A stretch of DNA of 64,000 nucleotides from contig ABHC01000003.1 in NCBI GenBank assembly GCA_000171835.1, positions 62,001 through 126,000 on the forward strand. Direction: 5' to 3'. A program made the position numbers and the translations under genes. The stretch comes from an alpha proteobacterium BAL199. Its GTDB lineage: Bacteria; Pseudomonadota; Alphaproteobacteria; Thalassobaculales; Thalassobaculaceae. Each line of letters starts with the position of its first letter. Positions within the stretch are counted from its first letter, which is position 1. Below, piece after piece: positions 7,256 through 20,159 of this stretch. A model generated the notes under the pieces. It worked only from the letters and a program-made list of their open reading frames with translations. It was not told the DNA's origin and did not search any database.

Positions 7256-9892
7256 TTACGGCGTCTCCCTTATCGCTTCGAGATGCGGTGTCGAGGTCTG
7301 CTCGGCGAATGCCGCGTAACGCTGTCTCGTCGCGGCAACAGCGTCGCGCAGTGCGTTGATCAAGGCGACATCAATCTGATCGGCCCGTGCCGCGGCTTCA
7401 ATCAAGCCGGCACCGGAAGCAATGCGCGTCAGACCGACATTTCCTGACACTCCTCGAACCGCGTGGCCGATGGCTCGCACGCGTTCGGGATCATCCGCCA
7501 AGCTCGCCATCTGGTCGACCTGCTCTTCGATCGTCGTCAGAACCTCGTGTGTCAACGAGACGGTTCGGCCATGGCCTAGCCGTGCCATGAGATCGCCTTG
7601 CTGTTTTGCGCTGAGCAATTCGACCGCTTCCAGATCCTGCGCGCTGGACAAGCCCACCGGCACGCTCACCGGCTGGCTATCCCCTATGGAGGCGCCCGCA
7701 ACGCCTGTGACGGAGGCCAGGGCCGACAGCAGTTGGTCCCATTCGATCGGCTTGGGCAGGCAATCGGTCATTCCAGCCATTCGGTAGGCGTCACGCTGCT
7801 CCGTGAATGCGTCGGCCGTCAGACCGATGATCGGAATTTGACTCCAGGTCGTCGCTTCAGCGCGGATCCATCGTGTCGCCTCGACGCCATCCAGCACCGG
7901 CATGTTCACGTCCATCAAGACCGCGTCGTACTGTGTGCCGGACCGCAGCCGCTCCAGGCATGCAACACCGTCTCCGACCGTGTCGACGGTGTGGCCTTCT
8001 TCCGTCAGATACTGGGCGATAATGTCGCGATTCAGTGGCACGTCATCGGCCAGCAAAATCACCAGGGGTCGCGACGGGATTTGGCCAGTCTTTGACTCGA
8101 CCGATGCCAGGCGATCACCTTCTTCCAGTTCCAGATCGATGTAGAAAGTGGATCCGGTTCCCGTCCCGCCCGACGAGACCCCGATATTTCCGCCCATTCT
8201 CGTCATCAGGCCCGCCGAGATCGCCAAACCGAGGCCGGTGCCGCTCGCGCTTGGCGCATCCAAGCGATCGATCTGCGAGAATTCCCGAAACAGCAGGGCC
8301 TGTCCTTCTGAGGAAATCCCAGGCCCAGTGTCGATGACCTCGACCCGCAACCGATGGCAGCGGGTCCCGGACGGCTCGGTGCCGTATCGAACTGTAACCC
8401 TCCCTTCTGCGGTAAACTTCACAGCATTGCCAACCAGGTTGAACAGGACCTGCGCCAGCCGCTCGGCGTCACCGACAAGTGCCTCGGGGAGAATGCCGGT
8501 ACGTTCCGTCTCAATGGTGATCCCTTTGGCGCGTGCCGTCGCTTCGAACAGTCCCGCAGCGTTGCGGATCAGTGCTTCGGGATCGAATGGCTTTGTCGTC
8601 AGTTCGATCTTATTTGCTTCGATCTTGGAGAAATCCAGGACCTGATTGATCAGGGACAGCAGATGCCGGCCAGCGGTGCGAGCTTCTTCGATGTCATGAC
8701 GCACCTCGGCCAGCGACCGGCGACGTTCCGTCAGATCGAGCATTCCCAGCACTCCGGTCAATGGAGTGCGCAGCTCGTGGCTGATCGCTGCCAGAAACCG
8801 CGACTTGGTACGGTTTGCGGTCTCGGCCTCCAATCGGGCGGCGTCAAGTTCATCTTCGCTGCGGCTGCGCTCCTCGACCATCATTGCGAAGCCTTGCGTG
8901 ACGGTCTGAAGCTCCCGGTACACGCTCGGAGTTAGCCGCGCCGTGGTGTCACCGTCACTGACTGAATGAAACACCTTCACGGCGTTGGAAATGCGCCGGA
9001 ACAGCGGTGCAAACACCAGGAAGGCGGCAACCAGCGACCCGCCCACCACGGCAAGCGCGATCAGTGCGGTCGACGCCGCGACCCCGCTCAACGTTTCATC
9101 GAACTCCGCGATGTCAATTTGCGTCACCAGGCAAGCCGCCGGCGTCTCGATCCACCGGTAGCTGACAATCACCGCGACGCCCCGGTAGTCGGTTCCGTCC
9201 TCAACGGCACTCTGGCCAGCAATGCAGCGATTGACGAACGTCTCGTGCACGCCGCCGACCAGTGCTCCAGTGTCCGCCGCCAGCCGGGGCGGTGACACCA
9301 GCAGGTTCCCGCTGCTGATCAGGTAGCTGTCTTCGCTCTTAAAGGCTGTGGACTTGGTCTGCAGGACCTTGGCAAATCCGACGGGGCTGAGAACCGCGCC
9401 CAGCACAAGCAGCCGCCCGTTGCGGCGGGCCGGCATCGCGACGGTCGACACCGATTTACGGCGATACAGGTCGTACACCGGCGGGCCGATATACAGTCCC
9501 TGCCGTCCGGCATTGAAGTACGTCTCCTCGCTGCGGATTTTGTTGAGCTGCGCCCGGTCCGTCGACTCCAGCACCTCGCCGGTCTCGCCATCGAGCACGA
9601 ACACTTCGTCCAGGCGCCCGCTGGTACTGTTCTTAATCGAACTGAGATGGCCTTCGACGTCATGTTCGATGATTCCGAGGAGCGACACCGCCTCGTTGAC
9701 CGACGCGGACACCTGGAAGGCCTTTTCGGCGTTGATCGCTGCAACGGTTCGTTCCGCCGCCGCGCGGGCTCGCGATACCAGTTGTGAGTGATGAACCCAG
9801 CCGGCGGCAAGTGGACCGATCACACCAATCGCAATGATCAGAGCGATGATCGACCCCCGAAGCGACAGGCGATCAACCAGGCGGACCACCAT
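7256..9892 (-). CDS. Hybrid sensor histidine kinase with HAMP, REC and HPt
   Basis: An 878-residue hybrid kinase. Two membrane helices (about 13-33 and 270-295) bracket a periplasmic domain of about 230 residues that resembles a double-Cache sensor. A HAMP linker follows, then the DHp with SHELRTPLTGVLGM (His near 371), the ATPase domain, a receiver with the acceptor Asp in DVNMP near 660, and a C-terminal HPt with GHAVRGVSGN (His near 810). All steps of an internal phosphorelay up to the HPt are therefore present. The start at 9892 overlaps the end of the THI5-like binding-protein gene by 20 bases, so the two are probably co-translated. No output regulator is adjacent. Confidence 0.9.
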   Translation of the reverse strand: MVVRLVDRLSLRGSIIALIIAIGVIGPLAAGWVHHSQLVSRARAAAERTVAAINAEKAFQVSASVNEAVSLLGIIEHDVEGHLSSIKNSTSGRLDEVFVLDGETGEVLESTDRAQLNKIRSEETYFNAGRQGLYIGPPVYDLYRRKSVSTVAMPARRNGRLLVLGAVLSPVGFAKVLQTKSTAFKSEDSYLISSGNLLVSPPRLAADTGALVGGVHETFVNRCIAGQSAVEDGTDYRGVAVIVSYRWIETPAACLVTQIDIAEFDETLSGVAASTALIALAVVGGSLVAAFLVFAPLFRRISNAVKVFHSVSDGDTTARLTPSVYRELQTVTQGFAMMVEERSRSEDELDAARLEAETANRTKSRFLAAISHELRTPLTGVLGMLDLTERRRSLAEVRHDIEEARTAGRHLLSLINQVLDFSKIEANKIELTTKPFDPEALIRNAAGLFEATARAKGITIETERTGILPEALVGDAERLAQVLFNLVGNAVKFTAEGRVTVRYGTEPSGTRCHRLRVEVIDTGPGISSEGQALLFREFSQIDRLDAPSASGTGLGLAISAGLMTRMGGNIGVSSGGTGTGSTFYIDLELEEGDRLASVESKTGQIPSRPLVILLADDVPLNRDIIAQYLTEEGHTVDTVGDGVACLERLRSGTQYDAVLMDVNMPVLDGVEATRWIRAEATTWSQIPIIGLTADAFTEQRDAYRMAGMTDCLPKPIEWDQLLSALASVTGVAGASIGDSQPVSVPVGLSSAQDLEAVELLSAKQQGDLMARLGHGRTVSLTHEVLTTIEEQVDQMASLADDPERVRAIGHAVRGVSGNVGLTRIASGAGLIEAAARADQIDVALINALRDAVAATRQRYAAFAEQTSTPHLEAIRETP

Positions 9893-10841
9893 ACGCCTCC
9901 TGCAACAGGCTGAGGTCGAACAGCGTATCGACGTCGAGGCCGGCGAGAGCCGGGTTTGTCGGCTCAAGAACCGTCGCAGCTGCCTGCCAGTCTTCCCTGG
10001 TCATCCAGCCGATCCGATCCTGCCCGGTGTGGACCAATGGGACGATCACGGCAAACATCTGGCCGATCTCGTCCTTCGAGAACGCTTGCGTCCGCCGCCG
10101 CACGAAGGGTGCAAGATTCGAATGGTTCACAATAGCAGCTTGCCAGCCGCGCATGCTCGCCCGCAGGAACGCCACCAGGTCATGACGACGGGTTCGAACG
10201 GTCTCCTCGGTCGCGAAGATGACCCGCGCATAGGCCCGGAAGCCATAGTCCTGCGGGTAAACATGGTTGAGGATCAATCCACGCGCTTCGATCTGCGCCG
10301 GCAGACCGGTGACGTAGGCGCCCCACACGTCGGCAGCCCCCTCTAGGACGAGATCGGGGTCGGACGGCAGCGGGAGAACCTGATAGGCCGATGGATCGAT
10401 CCCAAAGTGCCCCATCAGAAAGGTCAAGGCCGGGATCAGATCGGGTGTTGCACGGATACGCCGTCCAACGAAGTCTCGCGGGTGCCGGATGTTTGCATCG
10501 GGCAGCGAGAAGAAGGTAACCGGCGACCGGCGATAGATTGCAGCAAGCGCAACAATCGGAGCCCCGGCAGCTCGGTGCTGCAGGATCGCGTCACTCCAGG
10601 CCATTCCGACATCGGATCGACCGGATATGACAGGCTCTACAGCGTCAATACCTGGTCCGCCGGGCACGAACGCCACGGTCAACCCCTCGGCTGAGTAGTA
10701 CCCTTCATCCTCGGCAACGTAGAAGCCGGCAAACGACGGGTGGTCGACCCATCCCAATTCGACAGTCAAATCGGTCGCGGAGGCCCTTGCGCCCCACGCC
10801 ATGGCGCACGCAATGATGACGAGACCCAAGATGTGCCGCAT
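9873..10841 (-). CDS. THI5/NMT1-like periplasmic substrate-binding protein
   Basis: A 322-residue secreted protein; the signal peptide runs to about residue 24 (cleavage near ASA-TDL). The mature part matches the NMT1/THI5-like fold of ABC solute receptors: ELGWVDHPSFAGFYVAED, a GGPGIDAVEPVISGRSDVG glycine-rich stretch, and MAWSDAILQHRAAGAPIVA. Relatives bind pyrimidine, riboflavin-like or sulfonate compounds; the ligand here is unknown. No ABC permease or ATPase gene is near. The gene overlaps the hybrid kinase at 7256-9892, so the receptor probably presents its ligand to that kinase (inference). The ATG at 10841 begins the signal peptide; an upstream in-frame start at 10868 is less likely. 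Confidence 0.85.
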   Translation of the reverse strand: MRHILGLVIIACAMAWGARASATDLTVELGWVDHPSFAGFYVAEDEGYYSAEGLTVAFVPGGPGIDAVEPVISGRSDVGMAWSDAILQHRAAGAPIVALAAIYRRSPVTFFSLPDANIRHPRDFVGRRIRATPDLIPALTFLMGHFGIDPSAYQVLPLPSDPDLVLEGAADVWGAYVTGLPAQIEARGLILNHVYPQDYGFRAYARVIFATEETVRTRRHDLVAFLRASMRGWQAAIVNHSNLAPFVRRRTQAFSKDEIGQMFAVIVPLVHTGQDRIGWMTREDWQAAATVLEPTNPALAGLDVDTLFDLSLLQEAYGGPPG

Positions 10842-10978
10842 CGGCGTTCCCCGGACTGTTCGGGGCATGGTTAATCAAACTTTGTTAACAATCCCCGAAG
10901 ATCCACGCCTCCGAGATCGCCGGATGGCCGTTGCCCGCAGGCTCGGGGCCAAACACGCTCGAAACAGCCTTCCAGACG

Positions 10979-11863: not shown

Positions 11864-12466
11864 CTATGGAGCGGCGAGCTTCCGCACGCTCGACCGAAGA
11901 TCCAGTGCGGACTGGTTGACGGTCTCCAAGCGACGCCGAATCGGATGATCATTCGGCAAATCGGCAAGGCACAGATGCAGATTGGCCAGCATCCCTCCGA
12001 TGATATTGTTCATATCATGAGCAAGGCGGCTCCGCGCATGCTGCTCGGCCTCATCCGGATGCCGCACACCCGTTACCGTCAAAACGATTGGTCCATCGGT
12101 CACCGAGCGAGCCGCAAGCTCGAACACTCGACCGTCTTCGAAGCCAATCTCTTGCCGAACGTCACTGCCTCGCATCGACGTCTCGATCAAGGCTGCCCAG
12201 GCTTCGGACAACGTACGGACATCTGACGCAGAATGCCCGCTTGCGGACGATGTGAGCATCCGGTGGAACGTCGCGCCAGCTTCGGCCCTTACCGCATCGG
12301 CAGCTTCGATCCGATGCGCTGCCAGAAACCGTTCATCGGCCGTCAGAACGTACCCCGACCGATCCAGCACCGCGAGCCCGACCCCCGCGGTACGTAACGC
12401 CGCGATCAGGATCGCGGCGTCGCATCCGTGCTCCCCCGGCCACAATGAACTGCCGGCCTCGAGCAT
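11864..12466 (-). CDS. PAS-DHp protein lacking a kinase ATPase domain
   Basis: A 200-residue soluble protein. Residues about 15-135 look like a PAS-type sensor (LDRSGYVLTADERFLAAHRI, then a DGRVFELAARSV strand). Residues about 143-198 form a histidine-kinase dimerisation domain with the H-box LAHDMNNIIGGMLANL (His near 150) and a second helix ending at SVRKLAAP. The protein stops where the HATPase domain should begin. The H-box closely resembles that of the hybrid kinase at 13855-16554 (IAHDFNNIIGG). It follows folE with an eight-base gap. It could serve as a histidine phosphotransferase or as a dimerising regulator of another kinase; both are inference. Confidence 0.75.
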   Translation of the reverse strand: MLEAGSSLWPGEHGCDAAILIAALRTAGVGLAVLDRSGYVLTADERFLAAHRIEAADAVRAEAGATFHRMLTSSASGHSASDVRTLSEAWAALIETSMRGSDVRQEIGFEDGRVFELAARSVTDGPIVLTVTGVRHPDEAEQHARSRLAHDMNNIIGGMLANLHLCLADLPNDHPIRRRLETVNQSALDLRSSVRKLAAP

Positions 12467-12474
12467 CGGACCGA

Positions 12475-13134
12475 CTACCGCTGAGCCGCGATCGCGTCGA
12501 AGAACCGCTGCTGCATCTGTGGATCCACGGAAAGTTCGCCGCTAAACGCCTGCGTGCGAAGGCGAGGAGCGCGCTTGTTGACGCCTTGCAAGGTCATGCA
12601 ACCGTGCTCAGCGTCGACAACCACACCAACCGCGCGTGGCGCCAGACCATCTTCGATGCACTGCGCGATCTGAGCCGTCATCCGCTCCTGGATCTGCAGC
12701 CGGCGAGCATAGGCGTCGACAACCCGCGCCAGCTTGCTGATTCCGACCACGGCGTTTGACGGGAGGTACGCGATGTGAGCCTTGCCGACGATCGGCGCCA
12801 AGTGGTGTTCGCAGTGCGAGACGAAATCGATGTCCGTCAGAATGACGAGGCCCTGGTAGCCGGAAACCTCGCTGAACTTTCTCTGCAGCAAGGCCACCGG
12901 ATCCAACGCATAGCCCGAGCAATATTCCGCAAACGCCCGGACCACACGACCAGGCGTATCGCGCAGTCCATCACGATCTGGATCCTCACCGATGGCTCGT
13001 AATAACGCACGAACCCCTTCTTCAGGCGCGTCGTAACTCACGTCAGGACGAACTTCGTCCGGCGTGTCCTCTTCGTCCACCGGATGCGACGCCAAGCGTC
13101 CGTTCCGAAAGACAGATACCGCGGACTCGTTCAT
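12475..13134 (-). CDS. folE: GTP cyclohydrolase I (type IA)
   Basis: A 219-residue enzyme converting GTP to 7,8-dihydroneopterin triphosphate, the first step of folate synthesis. Zinc ligands Cys108 and His111 (SHCEHH) and Cys179 (HGCMTLQGV) are all present, as are AYLPSNAVVGISKLARVVD and the RLQIQERMT block. Length and C-terminal region fit the family. It lies in a signalling neighbourhood rather than with other folate genes: a lone receiver gene is upstream and the PAS-DHp gene directly downstream on the same strand. The dfrA and thyA genes of this window are 28-32 kb away. Confidence 0.95.
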   Translation of the reverse strand: MNESAVSVFRNGRLASHPVDEEDTPDEVRPDVSYDAPEEGVRALLRAIGEDPDRDGLRDTPGRVVRAFAEYCSGYALDPVALLQRKFSEVSGYQGLVILTDIDFVSHCEHHLAPIVGKAHIAYLPSNAVVGISKLARVVDAYARRLQIQERMTAQIAQCIEDGLAPRAVGVVVDAEHGCMTLQGVNKRAPRLRTQAFSGELSVDPQMQQRFFDAIAAQR

Positions 13135-13220: not shown

Positions 13221-13619
13221 TCATTCACTGGTCTTGTTGGACGCCGATGACGCTGTCTTGCCGGTAACAAGGCCGTCGATCATCTCAAGCAGGTCGTTCG
13301 GGGCGAACGGCTTTTGCAGGATGGCGTCGGCCCCCAGAAGTGGCGCCTGGTTGAGAAACTGCGAGAGCTCTCCACTGGCACCGGACATCATGATGAATTT
13401 CATGTCGGGCGTGTTCCGCCGCACCGATCGAAGAACCTCGAACCCCTCCGAGTCCGGCATCAGCATGTCGCACACAACCAGATCCGCCGACCACTCGCGC
13501 AACAGCTGCGCCGCCTTGATACCGTTCGAAGCAGCCCGCACCTCGTGCCCGGCCCGCTGAAGTACTTCCTGGAGTGCATCGCGTAGGCCGTCGTCGTCAT
13601 CGACGAGGGAAATCTTCAT
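13221..13619 (-). CDS. Single-domain response regulator (REC only)
   Basis: A 132-residue stand-alone receiver. The acidic pocket (DDDD near residues 7-10), the acceptor Asp in VVCDMLMPDSEG near 51, the Thr/Ser switch at MMSGAS and the KPF lysine near 104 are all in place, so it should accept phosphate. It has no output domain. Its position between folE/PAS-DHp and the hybrid kinase at 13855 suggests it carries phosphate between these proteins, like other single-domain receivers in phosphorelays (inference). Confidence 0.9.
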   Translation of the reverse strand: MKISLVDDDDGLRDALQEVLQRAGHEVRAASNGIKAAQLLREWSADLVVCDMLMPDSEGFEVLRSVRRNTPDMKFIMMSGASGELSQFLNQAPLLGADAILQKPFAPNDLLEMIDGLVTGKTASSASNKTSE

Positions 13620-13854: not shown

Positions 13855-16554
13855 CTACGCTGTCAGATCAGGGACCGGCACGGCCGAGAGTCGATCGTCC
13901 CCTGAGGTACCGCTCAGTACGGTTCGCACTGAGGCAGCGAGTTCGTCGGGAAGAACGGGTTTTCCAATCACGGAGTCGATACCCGCCGCAGTCAGTCGCT
14001 CGATGTCTTCGATCGAGACGAAGCCGCTCAGCATCAGTACCGGAACGTCGCCCCGAACCTTCTTCATCGCTATGACCAGTTCCTCACCCGTCATCTTAGG
14101 CATCGAACGGTCGGTGATAATCAGGTCCCATAGTCCGGGATCTGACATGAACGACTCCAACGCCTGCTCCGGTTCAACATGCGCCTCAACCACATAGCCC
14201 AGGCGCTCCAGGATCTCGCGGGTCACGGAGAGCAGCACACGATCATCGTCGATCAACAACACCCGTTCGCTGCCCGCTACCACCGGCTCCTTGGGCGCCT
14301 CACCGGCGCTTGCCGACAGCGGGCTGCGGATCTGAGGAAAGTAGAAATCGAACCGAGTCCCAACCTCGGCAAGGCTTTCGATGACCACCACGCCATCGTG
14401 ATTGCGAACAATTCCATGAACCGCCGCCAGGCCCAGCCCGGTTCCCTGACCAACCTCCTTGGTCGTATAGAACGGCTCAAAAATCCGCGGCATGACGTCT
14501 TCGGGAATCCCGCAACCGGTATCAGTGATGGTCAACCTGACATATTTGCCGTCAACCAGGGTTCCGGCGCGGCCATGCACAGATCGACTGTCCCAGGACC
14601 TGTCACGGCGGTCTTCCGGCGGCTTCGCTCCGACAACATCGATGCTTTGCACGGAAACCGTGACCCGGCCGCGCCGCTCGCCAATCGACTGGGCCGCGTT
14701 GACACAGACATTCAACATGACCTGGTGGATCTGGGTAGCGTCGCCCTCGATGAAACAACTCTCAACATTATGGGAACGGAGCGTCACGTTGCTCGGCATC
14801 AGTGACCGCAACGTCGACAAGCTCTCGGTCACCGCTATGCCCAGATCCAGCGGCCTGCGCTCCGACTCGGCGTTGCGGCTGTAGGTCAGGATCTGTCGAA
14901 CAAGGTCTCGGGCTCGAGTCCCGGAATCCATGATCTGCTGAAGCCGGCTGTACGCCGGGTCGTGCTTTGGCACATCTCCGATCATCAGCGAGCAGTTTCC
15001 GATGATACCGCCGATGATATTGTTGAAATCATGGGCGATTCCACCGGCCAGGGTGCCGAGCGCCTGGGTCTTCTGGGCGGCATGATACATTTCAGTCAGC
15101 CGGACACGTTCGGCTTCTGAGGTGATCCGATCGGTTACATCTTCGTAGGTTTTGACAAACCCACCGGTCGGCAACGCCGTCACGATGGTTTCGACTACCC
15201 GGCTATCCTGCAGGTGCCGCTGCTGACGGAGATTTCCAGAACGGGTACGAAGCAGTTCCTCGATCGCGGAGACCTGTGAGTTGACTATCGCCTCGGGATC
15301 GCCCGGACCGAAATCGCCCCTACGCGCCGCAAATGTCGCTAGATCCCGATAGGCGGCTGACGTGTCCACGAGCTCTTGCGGGTAGTGGTTGACCATCAAA
15401 TACTGGTTGTTAAACAGAACCAAATTGGCAGAGGCATCGAACACCGCGATGCCCTGCTTCATGTTATCAAGCGTCGTCTGAAGAAGTTCCGACTTCTGCG
15501 CGACCAGGCTCTCACGCTTCTTCAGCTCGGTGATATCTGTGTGAACGCCAACCAGACGGCCGTCACTGGTTCGACGTTCACTGATCCGCAGCCAATGACC
15601 GTCGGACAGGCGGCTTTCGAATGTCGTCTCGGCAGTCGCTCGGCGTTGTTCGAGGATAGACGCTACCCATTCATCGACACCGCCCTCCCGGACCGTGACA
15701 CCGCCGTTGCGCACCGCCGCCCGCAACAGATCCTCAAAGCTTATGCCAACACAAAGAAGGTCGGCCTGCTGCGGGTGGAGATCGACATAGCGCTTGTTGA
15801 ACAACGCCACCCGATCATCCTGATCATAGATGATGAAACCTTCCGAGATGCTGTTGATCGCCAGTTCAAGCTCGTTGCGCGCCGTGATGGCCTGGGTGGC
15901 GGCACGCTCCTTGTCGCCAACCGCCCGGTGGGTCTTGATGATTTGACGAAACAACAGAAAGAAGATCACAAGTCCCATAACGAGGGTCAGGCCGAACAGT
16001 CCCAGCAGTTGCTGATACAGTTCGTTATGGCGTGACCGCCCGCGGCTGACCTCATTGGACTCATAAAGCAGAGCCCGTCTGACCAGATCGTGAACCGGCC
16101 CGCCAAGAGTATCGAGCTTTCGCTTGACCTCCGCCAATGCGTCCAACGAGACGGATTGCAGATCCTCCATCTCGCCTTCAACAGTCCTCAGGACCTGGAT
16201 GATCTCTTTGGCCGACTGAACGACGCCATCGATCGCCCGAAGCTCAGCCGTCTGCGTTCCCTCCAGCAGCGGGGGCAGCCGGCTCCAAAAGATCTCGAAC
16301 CGCTGGCGGGCAACCTCGGCTGTCTCGGGGTTGGGTGCGAGTTCGTAGTCCTTCAGCGAGTCTCGGAATCGAAGAAATTCGATCTCGGTCTGCGCCAGGA
16401 ACCATACGTTGATGCGGCTTTCTTTCTCGATCAGTTCCCGTTGCTGAATCAGGCCCTGAAAGATGAAGAAGACACCAACAAGGAATGCGCAAAACCCAAC
16501 GACTAGAACGCCGTATCGCAGCATCAACCACGCCAGTTCGCGCAGACTAACCAT
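13855..16554 (-). CDS. Hybrid sensor histidine kinase with two PAS domains and REC
   Basis: An 899-residue kinase. A membrane helix near 11-36, a periplasmic helical sensor region of about 150 residues, and a second helix near 190-210 precede two PAS-like domains (NSISEGFIIYDQDDRVALF; DNMKQGIAVFDASANLVLF). The DHp has GGIAHDFNNIIGG (His near 507), the ATPase domain has DTGCGIP and GTGLGLA, and a C-terminal receiver carries the acceptor Asp in IITDRSMP near 812. It has no HPt. The ATG at 16554 has AGGAG about nine bases upstream and is preferred to the open frame reaching 16647. The gene follows the periplasmic molybdopterin-fold gene by 56 bases. Confidence 0.9.
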   Translation of the reverse strand: MVSLRELAWLMLRYGVLVVGFCAFLVGVFFIFQGLIQQRELIEKESRINVWFLAQTEIEFLRFRDSLKDYELAPNPETAEVARQRFEIFWSRLPPLLEGTQTAELRAIDGVVQSAKEIIQVLRTVEGEMEDLQSVSLDALAEVKRKLDTLGGPVHDLVRRALLYESNEVSRGRSRHNELYQQLLGLFGLTLVMGLVIFFLLFRQIIKTHRAVGDKERAATQAITARNELELAINSISEGFIIYDQDDRVALFNKRYVDLHPQQADLLCVGISFEDLLRAAVRNGGVTVREGGVDEWVASILEQRRATAETTFESRLSDGHWLRISERRTSDGRLVGVHTDITELKKRESLVAQKSELLQTTLDNMKQGIAVFDASANLVLFNNQYLMVNHYPQELVDTSAAYRDLATFAARRGDFGPGDPEAIVNSQVSAIEELLRTRSGNLRQQRHLQDSRVVETIVTALPTGGFVKTYEDVTDRITSEAERVRLTEMYHAAQKTQALGTLAGGIAHDFNNIIGGIIGNCSLMIGDVPKHDPAYSRLQQIMDSGTRARDLVRQILTYSRNAESERRPLDLGIAVTESLSTLRSLMPSNVTLRSHNVESCFIEGDATQIHQVMLNVCVNAAQSIGERRGRVTVSVQSIDVVGAKPPEDRRDRSWDSRSVHGRAGTLVDGKYVRLTITDTGCGIPEDVMPRIFEPFYTTKEVGQGTGLGLAAVHGIVRNHDGVVVIESLAEVGTRFDFYFPQIRSPLSASAGEAPKEPVVAGSERVLLIDDDRVLLSVTREILERLGYVVEAHVEPEQALESFMSDPGLWDLIITDRSMPKMTGEELVIAMKKVRGDVPVLMLSGFVSIEDIERLTAAGIDSVIGKPVLPDELAASVRTVLSGTSGDDRLSAVPVPDLTA

Positions 16555-16610
16555 AGTTGACGGGCTCCTGAGCAGGATTGGCATTGCTGTGTCAAACCGC
16601 GGTAATGGCG

Positions 16611-17132
16611 TTACTTGAACTGAATTTCTTTGACCTGCCAAACCCACTTGGCCTGGGTCTGCTTGTTCTTCAACTCAGGGAAATCGTCCTGTGGGTAGAT
16701 GATCCACAGCGGTCCCTTGTCCCGTATCCGAAGAAGTTCGCCATTCATGCGGTATGCAAGGATGACTGGATACTTCGCGAAATCGTCGGTTGGGATCTCG
16801 ACCTTGTAGTCATTCAACGCAATCGCAACCGCCATCGCCCCGGAAGCCCCGAGCCGCTCGATCAGCGTGCTGAGCAGCACCCCCTCGAACTCCGGGCGCC
16901 CTTCTGTCCAAGCCGTCGACGTCACGAGTTTGGTGCGACCGAGACCTTCAAGCATGGCAAGATCGAAGACGGCCGTTTCACCGACATTCTTGACTTTGAT
17001 CTGACCGGTCACCTGCAGCAGCGGTTTGTCCTGTGGCTGCGACAACGACTCCGCCGAAACGGTTCCTGTCACCAAAGTGACAACAGCGACAATGCAAGTC
17101 GCGAAACCGAGCAACGAGCGTTTCATGAACAT
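16611..17132 (-). CDS. Periplasmic molybdopterin-oxidoreductase-fold protein without Mo-ligand Cys
   Basis: A 173-residue secreted protein with a signal peptide to about residue 28 (cleavage near VSA-ESL). The mature part matches the small sulfite-oxidase-fold family: STAWTEGRPEFEGVLLSTL, ALNDYKVEIPTDDFAKYPV, MNGELLRIRDKGPLWIIYP. The cysteine that ligates molybdenum in true sulfite oxidases is absent (Trp/Thr in the corresponding loop), so catalysis is unlikely. It is encoded immediately upstream of the hybrid kinase at 13855-16554; a role as its periplasmic partner is inferred. An MKRS start three codons in (17126) is equally possible. Confidence 0.8.
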   Translation of the reverse strand: MFMKRSLLGFATCIVAVVTLVTGTVSAESLSQPQDKPLLQVTGQIKVKNVGETAVFDLAMLEGLGRTKLVTSTAWTEGRPEFEGVLLSTLIERLGASGAMAVAIALNDYKVEIPTDDFAKYPVILAYRMNGELLRIRDKGPLWIIYPQDDFPELKNKQTQAKWVWQVKEIQFK

Positions 17133-18182
17133 AACAGTCTCCCTCTCCTCAGAGTGTGCAGGTCGGCGGTCCGGTCAATCGGGCCTGCGACCATCGCGCG
17201 ATGGCTCAGGGGCCCGGAGGTAGAACACCGTCGCCGCCAGAGTAGCCAAGCCGAGAACAGCAAAGAACGCAGCGTATCCTGCCACCGGTGTCCCGAACCA
17301 GTTGTGCGCCGCTTCGACAATCATTCCGCTGACGATTTGTAGGATCGCCGTCCCCCCCATCAACACGCCATTCAGCGTCGTGGTACCGCGTCCGACCAGT
17401 CGGGACGGAATGAGCGCCACCCCGTGGCCCATCAGCACGACGCTGTAGGCACCCACGGTGCAGATAATGACCAATAAGGGCACGGTGATGACAAGCGAGG
17501 TGCCCGCGAACAACGCGAGGACGACCAGCAGACCGCCCGTCGACACGCTGCCGGCGACGACCACCCGACGAAAGCCAGAAACCCGCCGCTGGATCGGTCC
17601 GTAGGCCAAGGTCCCGATCACGAAGGCGATCGCCAGGACCGAGAGAAGGTTGCCCCGATCGAGGCTTTCCAACTGATGGACCTCATGCAGATACGGGGCA
17701 CCCCAGAGGCCGATGATCGTGATCACCGACGCATAGCCAAGCGCTATTAACGGGACAACCCGAAGAAGTCCCGGAACCCGGAAGACCTCGCGCAGGCCTC
17801 GGACCGAGTCGCCGAGCGTCTGAGGGCGGGCGGTGCTGTCTTCGGCACCCGGTCGGGTATCGCGGACGGTCACGAAAAAGATCACTGCCATGACGGCGGT
17901 GAATGCCGACAGGGCGAGGAACGTCGACCGCCAACCGATCCACTCAGTTGCAGCCGCCAGCGGCGAAGTCGCGAGCAGACTGCCCAGGTTCGCCGCTGCA
18001 AACAGAATGGTCATCGCCCTGATGAAGTCGGACGGGTTGTGCCAACGCGACAGGATCACCAGTGATCCGACCATCCCGCCGGCAAACCCGAGTCCGATCA
18101 GAAACCGCCCGGCAACGAGCATTCCGAGCGAATGCGCCACCGCAAACAGGCATGACCCGATGACGGCAAAGATCAACATGGA

Positions 18183-18191
18183 GGAGACCAC
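18183..18191. repeat. Target-site duplication, left copy
   Basis: GGAGACCAC, identical to 19622-19630. A nine-base direct repeat flanking the element fits IS256-family insertion. Confidence 0.9.
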
Positions 18192-19621
18192 GGGTATGTC
18201 CCGGTCGATGTTGAAATAGGGGAGCAGGCGTTGCCCGCCTTGAGCCATTAGGCTCGGGGTGTCGAATCCGCGAAGGAGAGCAACGCCATGAAGAAAGCTA
18301 CCAGATCTGCCGGCGTGGTGCCGGCGGCAATCGTCGATGAGGCTTGGCAGGAAGTCGGAGCCAGCTTCGATCGTTTCTGCCTGACGGCGGGCCTGGCGAC
18401 TTTGGCGACGATGATGGATGAGGAGGCGGCCGAGCTGTGCGGCCCGCGCTACGGCCGGGCTGCTGGGCGAGACGGGTATCGCTGGGGCAAGACCAAGGGG
18501 AAGGTCGGCTTCCACGGCGGCAAGGTCGAGATCGATCGTCCTCGCGTTCGTGCTCGCGACGGCGGCGAGCTGGCGCTGCCGAGCTGGGAGGCGGCGCAGT
18601 CGGAAGACCTGCTCGGCAAGTGGGCGCTGAACCTGATGCTGATCAACGTCTCGACCCGCAAGTTCGGCCGCGCCGTCCGCCTGCCGGGCGGCGACATCCC
18701 GGCGGCCCCCGGGTCGGGAGTGTCGAAGTCGGCGGTGTCGCGGCGGTTCGTGGCGCTGTCGGCGGAACGCATGAAGGAATGGATGGCCGCCGACTTGTCC
18801 GCCCTGGACCTGCTGGCGATCCAGATCGACGGCATCCACATCGAGGAAGACCTGATGCTGCTGGCCGCCGTCGGCATCGACGGCATCGGCGACAAGCATC
18901 CGCTCGGCGTGATCGAGGGGGCCAGCGAGAACGCCGCCGTGGCCCAGGCGCTGCTCGACAACCTGGTCGGCCGCGGCCTCGATCCCGCGGTCTGCCGACT
19001 GTTCATCATCGACGGCGCCAAGGCGCTGTCGAAGGCGATTCGCAACACCTTCGGCCGCGACACCCCGATCCAGCGCTGCCAGGTCCACAAGGCCCGCAAC
19101 ATCGCAGAGCGCCTGCCCAAGTCCTTGCAGGCCGGCGTCCGCAAGGCGCTGCGTCAGGCCTGGGAACTGGACGACGCCGACAAGGCCGAGAAGCTGATCC
19201 GCAACCTCGCCCGTCGCCTGGAGCGCGACGCCCCGGGCGTGTCGGCCAGCATCCTGGAGGGCCTCGACGAGATCCTCACCGTCACCCGCCTCGGTCTGCC
19301 AGTCGAACTACGCCGGTCGCTCGCCTGCACCAACATCATCGAGAACATGAACGGAACCGTCCGCCGGGTCTGCCGCAACGTCAAACGCTGGCAGGACGCG
19401 GCCATGGCGCTGCGCTGGACCGCCGCTGCCATGCTCGAGGCCGCCAAGGGTTTCCGCCGCCTCAAGGCCCACAAGCAACTCCCGAGCCTGCGCCGAGCCC
19501 TGGCGGCCCACCAGGACAGGAACGCGATCAACCACGACCTTGAACAGCAGGCGGTCGCCGCATAGCATCGTCAACCAACAGCGCCTGCCGAGCAAATTTC
19601 AACACGGCGAGGGACATCCCC
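18192..19621 (+). mobile_element. IS256-family insertion sequence (1430 bp)
   Basis: The element is bounded by imperfect terminal inverted repeats of about 26 bp (20 of 26 match): the left end begins GGGTATGTCCC and the right end, read inward, GGGGATGTCCC, both reaching TGTTGAAAT. It is flanked by a 9-bp direct repeat GGAGACCAC. It carries one transposase gene and lies antisense inside an MFS transporter gene. The transposase frame is intact, so the element may still be mobile. Confidence 0.93.
18288..19565 (+). CDS. IS256-family (mutator-type) transposase
   Basis: A 425-residue transposase. The DDE catalytic residues are visible: first Asp in LAIQIDGIHIEE (about 183), second Asp in FIIDGAKALSKAI (about 246) followed by RCQVHKARNI, and Glu in CTNIIENMNGTVRR (about 352). 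The length is usual for the family. No frameshift or internal stop is seen. It is transcribed opposite to the disrupted host gene. Confidence 0.95.
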   Translation: MKKATRSAGVVPAAIVDEAWQEVGASFDRFCLTAGLATLATMMDEEAAELCGPRYGRAAGRDGYRWGKTKGKVGFHGGKVEIDRPRVRARDGGELALPSWEAAQSEDLLGKWALNLMLINVSTRKFGRAVRLPGGDIPAAPGSGVSKSAVSRRFVALSAERMKEWMAADLSALDLLAIQIDGIHIEEDLMLLAAVGIDGIGDKHPLGVIEGASENAAVAQALLDNLVGRGLDPAVCRLFIIDGAKALSKAIRNTFGRDTPIQRCQVHKARNIAERLPKSLQAGVRKALRQAWELDDADKAEKLIRNLARRLERDAPGVSASILEGLDEILTVTRLGLPVELRRSLACTNIIENMNGTVRRVCRNVKRWQDAAMALRWTAAAMLEAAKGFRRLKAHKQLPSLRRALAAHQDRNAINHDLEQQAVAA

Positions 19622-19630
19622 GGAGACCAC
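19622..19630. repeat. Target-site duplication, right copy
   Basis: GGAGACCAC, identical to 18183-18191, immediately outside the right inverted repeat of the IS256-family element. Confidence 0.9.
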
Positions 19631-20159
19631 ATGGCGGGCGCCGTAGCGATCGAACAGCACGCCGATCGGAACCTGGAGCACTGCAAAGATGACAAAAAAT
19701 GCCCCCGACGACAGCCCGATGGCACTGGCATCGACATGCATCTCCGCCATCATCTCAGGGGCTATCACGCCATTGGATGATCGGAAAAACTGGCTGAGAA
19801 CCGCCAAGCCAATCATCACGAACAGCATGATGTTGACCCGCGACAGCCACATGGACTGCGGCCGTTCGCTCTCGTTGTTGGCAACGTCAGACATATCGCA
19901 CTCGCGTGACAATCCAATTTCCTCGGCGCCGTTTCGGTTGGTCAGCAGTTCCCAATCGCCGCGCCCCCGATTGGCCGAACGAAGAACGATAGACAAATTT
20001 GAGTTAACAAATACTGAACCTTGAGCGTGAAGGGTACCGTGTTCGTACGGTCATCGTGAGCTGTCGAGTCTGAGCCGGCTACGCCCGCTTGCGGACCGCC
20101 CGCTGATCCACCGACATTTCGCGCTCATTCCGGGTGTGGGCTTGCGCTATATTGTGCCG

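Follow-up and report, generated by a model that had tools for sequence, protein, structure and literature searches.

An ATPase-less DHp protein in a PruR-type operon with an apparent role in pterin synthesis and sensing

The five-gene operon described here appears, from its gene content, both to make and to sense pterins, and its last gene encodes a small protein that keeps the DHp helices of a histidine kinase without the ATPase domain. This protein, which probably passes phosphate between the kinase and the lone response regulator of the operon (or removes it), is conserved beyond chance, as judged from its occurrence in five other genomes, its invariant His and Asn residues and its dN/dS ratio. 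The operon lies in a stretch of 64,000 nucleotides from the alpha proteobacterium BAL199 (the window, to which positions refer unless another locus is named).

The recognition of pterins as bacterial signals is recent, and for the PruR systems published so far neither the source of the pterin nor what follows the kinase-type versions has been stated. The present cluster links a PruR receptor kinase to a dedicated pterin-making enzyme and adds a candidate for the downstream relay, which makes both questions testable in one operon. It also contains a naturally occurring kinase DHp domain that stands by itself and would show the minimum that a phosphotransferase or a phosphatase requires.

The DHp protein and its orthologues

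The gene (11864..12466, minus strand, read from 12466 to 11864, with an ATG start; the strand was not given in the initial annotation) encodes 200 amino acids. In Pfam, residues 29-141 (12044..12382, minus) match PAS_7 (E 3.3e-4) and residues 148-196 match positions 9-56 of the 66 of the HisKA profile (E 4.8e-3), both below the curated cut-offs; these matches agree with the PAS-like part and the histidine near residue 150 that had been noticed from the sequence at the outset. The DHp helical hairpin (residues 137-197; 11876..12058, minus) carries the motif H150-D-M-N-N, the codons of His150 and Asn154 being at 12017-12019 and 12005-12007 (minus). The same first reading had called the H-box helix pair complete, and this holds for the hairpin bearing His150 but not for the end of helix 2, since the last ~10 HisKA positions are absent from the protein; the hairpin is thus nearly complete. 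An AlphaFold model of the protein (two sequences) contains the two-helix hairpin at low confidence (mean pLDDT 42.6), so that its usable part is the PAS-like/hairpin outline only.

No Pfam match to HATPase_c, and none to the Hpt profile (PF01627), was found in the protein. The absence of an ATPase remnant, first noted for the next 235 bases, extends to the 1.5 kb downstream, here and at every orthologue, when the ATPase domain of the neighbouring kinase is used as query (the top match, E 0.08 over 24 aa, is at chance level). Besides itself, the closest relative of the protein in its own genome is the operon's hybrid kinase (E 1.8e-7, the next match being at 0.03), and the H-box resemblance proposed initially is therefore real; the two share AHD-NNIIGG. 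Among 61 HisKA matches genome-wide, two others have frames of less than 300 aa, each of them with an ATPase domain. A PDB search with the profile returned nothing, and promoter and terminator scans did no better than on shuffled sequence.

A search among 98 relatives (G000 being the BAL199 query genome) identified orthologues in five further genomes (G005, G002, G001, G035 and G030), that is, six with the query, from three genera of one family, which in our sample is the whole order (36 genomes). The initial annotation had suggested collecting homologues and checking both the missing ATPase domain and the adjacency to folE, and had named full-length kinases as the closest homologues that would speak against it. 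Both features are conserved in the six genomes: each protein lacks the ATPase domain and each gene lies directly behind folE, its start codon overlapping the folE stop (RTGA, either GTGA or ATGA) in all except BAL199, where the gap is 8 bp. Since every orthologue is without the ATPase domain, the nearest homologues are not full-length kinases, and a local truncation of a kinase is ruled out.

The proteins of G035 and G030 (96 and 81 aa) consist of the DHp hairpin without PAS, the gene beginning at the folE stop, which makes the histidine half the conserved core. Nine residues are invariant in all six (H150, N153, N154, G157, D169, P175, L180, N184 and R191), and N184 is specific to this family of proteins, because kinases carry M, L, I or V at that position. 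The Asn at H+4 is always kept; the acid at H+1 is lost in one orthologue (Q in G002). The best HisKA E-value among the orthologues is 9e-5, that of the BAL199 protein being sub-threshold. Between G000 and G005 the DHp protein is about 48-50% identical (FolE, 84%), with a dN/dS of about 0.24 (0.47/1.93) and dS near saturation; across comparisons the ratio is about 0.2-0.6, with saturated dS.

A profile search of 385 genomes of the class and 398 of the phylum, with scoring of the eight best candidates from each genome, gave no stand-alone homologue elsewhere; besides the query, every match so scored belongs to a frame that is open for 293 aa or more. One weak match of 50 residues came from a scan of genome contigs, none from a search of plasmids, and a search for stand-alone DHp proteins in the literature available found none.

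A PruR-type cluster with its own folE

At all six loci the gene order is the same: PruR-like gene, hybrid kinase, lone receiver (REC), folE, DHp gene. PruR proteins at least 55% identical to that of BAL199 occur in six genomes, and all six have the cluster.

The first gene (16611..17132, minus) encodes a putative periplasmic pterin-binding protein with a signal-like N-terminal segment, a PF00174 match (E 2.4e-8) and a Trp (TAWT) in the SUOX motif. With phmmer it matches the solved "Pterin Binding Protein" structures 7RKB (E 3e-42) and 7KOS (E 8e-36), the latter being A. tumefaciens PruR (PMC13259868). The TAWT motif is present at the six loci, and the Trp is as described for PruR. The hybrid histidine kinase (13855..16647, minus) has two hydrophobic TM helices around a WX7E periplasmic domain, two PAS_7 domains, HisKA (HDFNN), HATPase and REC; its WX7E reads WFLAQTEIE, and the motif is kept in all kinases examined. 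The regulator adjacent to PruR needs a periplasmic domain with WX7E (PMC13259868), and the combination of PruR with a DcpA-TorS-BaeS-type sensor kinase is known as PruR-DTB (Greenwich et al. 2024, reviewed in PMC13259868). With a SUOX-fold Trp protein lacking the Mo-ligating Cys as its first gene, followed by a WX7E regulator with a DcpA-type periplasmic domain, the present locus is a PruR-DTB system. Its core comes closest to VirA-like and CckA models (E 1e-71 for the CckA models), all matches being below the cut-offs.

The folE of the cluster (12475..13134, minus; GTP cyclohydrolase I, 219 aa; PF01227, E 1.5e-65) is one of two copies in the BAL199 genome, the second being located elsewhere. 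In the six cluster-bearing genomes it forms a divergent extra clade, scoring 219-227 bits against 244-253 for the housekeeping copy. This clade is missing from the other genomes of the family, nearly all of which carry just one folE (two in G008 and G011, none in four incomplete genomes), so the DHp gene and the folE paralogue co-occur strictly. Between folE and the kinase, the lone receiver (13221..13619, minus; 132 aa; PF00072, E 1.2e-23) is CpdR-like, the CpdR model (E 2.7e-18) and an OmpR model both matching below cut-off. Its catalytic Asp, Ser and Lys are present in the alignment and intact in five of the six genomes, the exception being G005, in which an in-frame TAA follows the phospho-acceptor region (L021, G005:C117, 5020-5403). 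At that locus the kinase frame is also split at about 2900, but pruR, folE and the DHp gene show no such damage; the two lesions are either draft or assembly errors or decay.

Outside the family, the nearest loci with a PruR-kinase pair (G091, G307 and G212) have neither folE nor the DHp gene nor this lone REC. In f88, another family, a PruR-kinase pair has a different lone REC gene as its divergent neighbour (L035, 9053-9445; L036, 3139-3492), a hint that PruR-DTB systems are repeatedly accompanied by lone receivers. Two further observations concern the surroundings in the window. A gene for a transporter of the major-facilitator type (17175-19996, minus) seems to be interrupted by a transposase ORF (18288-19565, plus). 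At 7256-10868, a hybrid kinase that includes an Hpt domain lies just downstream of a same-strand NMT1/THI5-like binding-protein gene and is possibly a binding-protein-fed sensor for a thiamine-precursor-like ligand.

The pterin- or folate-linked input that the initial annotation had guessed from folE is thus upheld for the locus, and is stronger than was seen then, because the operon begins with a PruR-type protein and its partner kinase. It is not upheld for the protein's own PAS: pterin sensing through that domain as a core function is unsupported, because the PAS is missing in G030 and G035. To judge from these genes, the likely pterin sensor is PruR with the kinase.

A candidate phosphorelay and its alternatives

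We give about even chances to the idea that the DHp protein is a bare-DHp histidine phosphotransferase, a dimer forming a four-helix bundle, which would link the two receivers of a pterin-sensing phosphorelay in the order kinase His, kinase REC, DHp His, lone REC, and would thus be a minimal counterpart of Spo0B and ChpT. The FolE paralogue, by analogy with its family, would raise dihydroneopterin-derived pterins; as in the published PruR systems, reduced periplasmic pterin would bind PruR, which would dock on the WX7E domain of the kinase; autophosphorylation would then change and, as is usual in the family, phosphate would go from the kinase His to its own REC. His150 may take this phosphate and give it to the lone REC, or return it, and the lone REC, since it has no output domain, would presumably work by protein contact.

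We infer the partners of this relay from gene order. With a DHp His, two receivers in the same operon and an H-D-x-x-N motif, a His-Asp-His-Asp relay is the simplest reading, and phosphotransfer by the DHp protein is plausible on these grounds. The REC of the hybrid kinase needs a phosphotransferase, a lone REC is at hand, and the cluster contains no further Hpt-type gene. The motif is shared with Spo0B, an established phosphotransferase. In Caulobacter, ChpT, a kinase-derived phosphotransferase, connects CckA to CpdR, and it is such a pair that the CckA-like kinase core and the CpdR-like REC recall here. A ChpT-family (PF10090) protein was not detectable genome-wide in G000 (the Caulobacter control was found), and this genome may lack the usual CckA-ChpT-CtrA relay or have a divergent form of it. 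Several points count against the relay: helix 2 is short in BAL199, the REC gene of G005 has its in-frame stop while the DHp gene is intact, and the known dimeric phosphotransferases Spo0B and ChpT keep an ATPase-like C-terminal domain, which the DHp protein does not have.

The main rival, which we consider rather unlikely, is that the dimer is a dedicated phosphatase, dephosphorylating the lone REC (or that of the kinase) and setting the off-rate of the pterin signal, with the Asn at H+4 positioning the attacking water. In HisKA proteins the requirement for the H+4 residue (T/N) is confined to phosphatase activity and that for the H+1 acid to kinase activity, and the isolated DHp of NtrB or EnvZ is a phosphatase in vivo (PMC3510030); the invariance of the Asn, together with the loss of the H+1 acid in G002, therefore fits a phosphatase at least as well as a relay. 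However, the His is invariant too, and HisKA phosphatases have no strict need for it as a phosphate carrier; the same motif is found in the phosphotransferase Spo0B, and without the DHp protein no phosphotransferase in the cluster joins the REC of the kinase to the lone REC. The two activities could coexist.

The initial annotation had also proposed mixed dimers with the hybrid kinase. In such a dimer the ATPase domain of the kinase would phosphorylate the DHp protein in trans, or the DHp protein would act as a dominant-negative inhibitor. This reading has lost ground and now seems improbable: the kinase is indeed the nearest genomic relative and has the matching H-box, but the DHp protein has drifted to 29-39% identity with the DHp of its cognate kinase (a domain that is 72% identical among the kinases), most kinase-invariant positions have changed, including those of the helix-2 bundle, the H+1 acid is lost in G002, and helix exchange with a membrane-bound kinase would be required. 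Still less probable, in our view, is a feedback loop in which either the signal or the DHp protein would bind to FolE and adjust pterin synthesis. The overlap of the DHp start codon with the folE stop in all genomes but that of BAL199 and the strict co-occurrence of the two genes suggest matched production, but translational coupling is common in operons, the DHp and REC motifs point to His-Asp chemistry, and we know of no FolE regulator of the DHp type. Finally, a functionless, decaying remnant of a duplicated kinase piece, as rapid change (48% identity, against 84% for FolE, between G000 and G005) and the loss of PAS in two genomes might suggest, is hardly credible for a frame open in all six genomes, with conserved position and folE overlap, invariant H, N, N, G and D, and the dN/dS values given above.

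Coming back to the phosphorelay, we would tentatively, and at somewhat less than even chances, go further and see in the operon a self-contained module, in which a dedicated FolE would make the signal, PruR and the hybrid kinase would sense it, and a bare DHp hairpin of ~80 aa, a kinase stripped of sensor and ATPase, would relay it as a histidine phosphotransferase of the smallest size possible, perhaps with feedback on FolE.

Comparison with known systems

PruR–kinase systems have been published; we found none in the literature that includes a folE, a receiver and an ATPase-less DHp protein of its own. As in PruR-DTB, a SUOX-fold PruR with Trp replacing the Mo-ligating Cys lies directly upstream of a kinase with WX7E, PAS, HisKA, HATPase and REC. 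The published pairs differ in being two-gene operons, and the review that describes them (PMC13259868) mentions no attached folE, receiver or DHp protein, the three components that the BAL199 locus adds.

The DHp protein has the DHp with phospho-acceptor His of a HisKA kinase but not the HATPase_c/CA domain. With Hpt domain proteins (PF01627) it would share a role in a phosphorelay, but it lacks the Hpt match and its predicted fold is the kinase-type two-helix hairpin, which must dimerise. PhyT/PhyP of the alphaproteobacterial general stress response (PMC5898713) likewise pair a kinase-derived phosphotransferase/phosphatase with a single-domain regulator, PhyT being in contrast a membrane protein of the HWE/HisKA_2 type, with HRxxN and a degenerate ATPase domain.

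As in Spo0B and ChpT, a DHp His sits in a protein unable to bind ATP, but the degenerate Bergerat-type C-terminal domain is missing. ChpT (CckA-ChpT-CpdR/CtrA; PMC3433190) is a DHp phosphotransferase working with a CckA-like hybrid kinase and a CpdR-like single-domain REC, a role that is only predicted for the DHp protein here; its atypical Bergerat domain (PF10090) has no counterpart in our protein, which ends after helix 2, its H-box sequence differs, and the BAL199 cluster is not a cell-cycle locus. Compared with Spo0B (PDB 1F51/1IXM), sequence homology is undetectable beyond the motif, and Spo0B has a C-terminal domain where the DHp protein has none, the shortest orthologues being of 81-96 aa and that of BAL199 adding an N-terminal PAS. 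The two nevertheless have in common a DHp hairpin of the dimeric type with H-D-x-x-N, a place between two receivers and no expected kinase activity.
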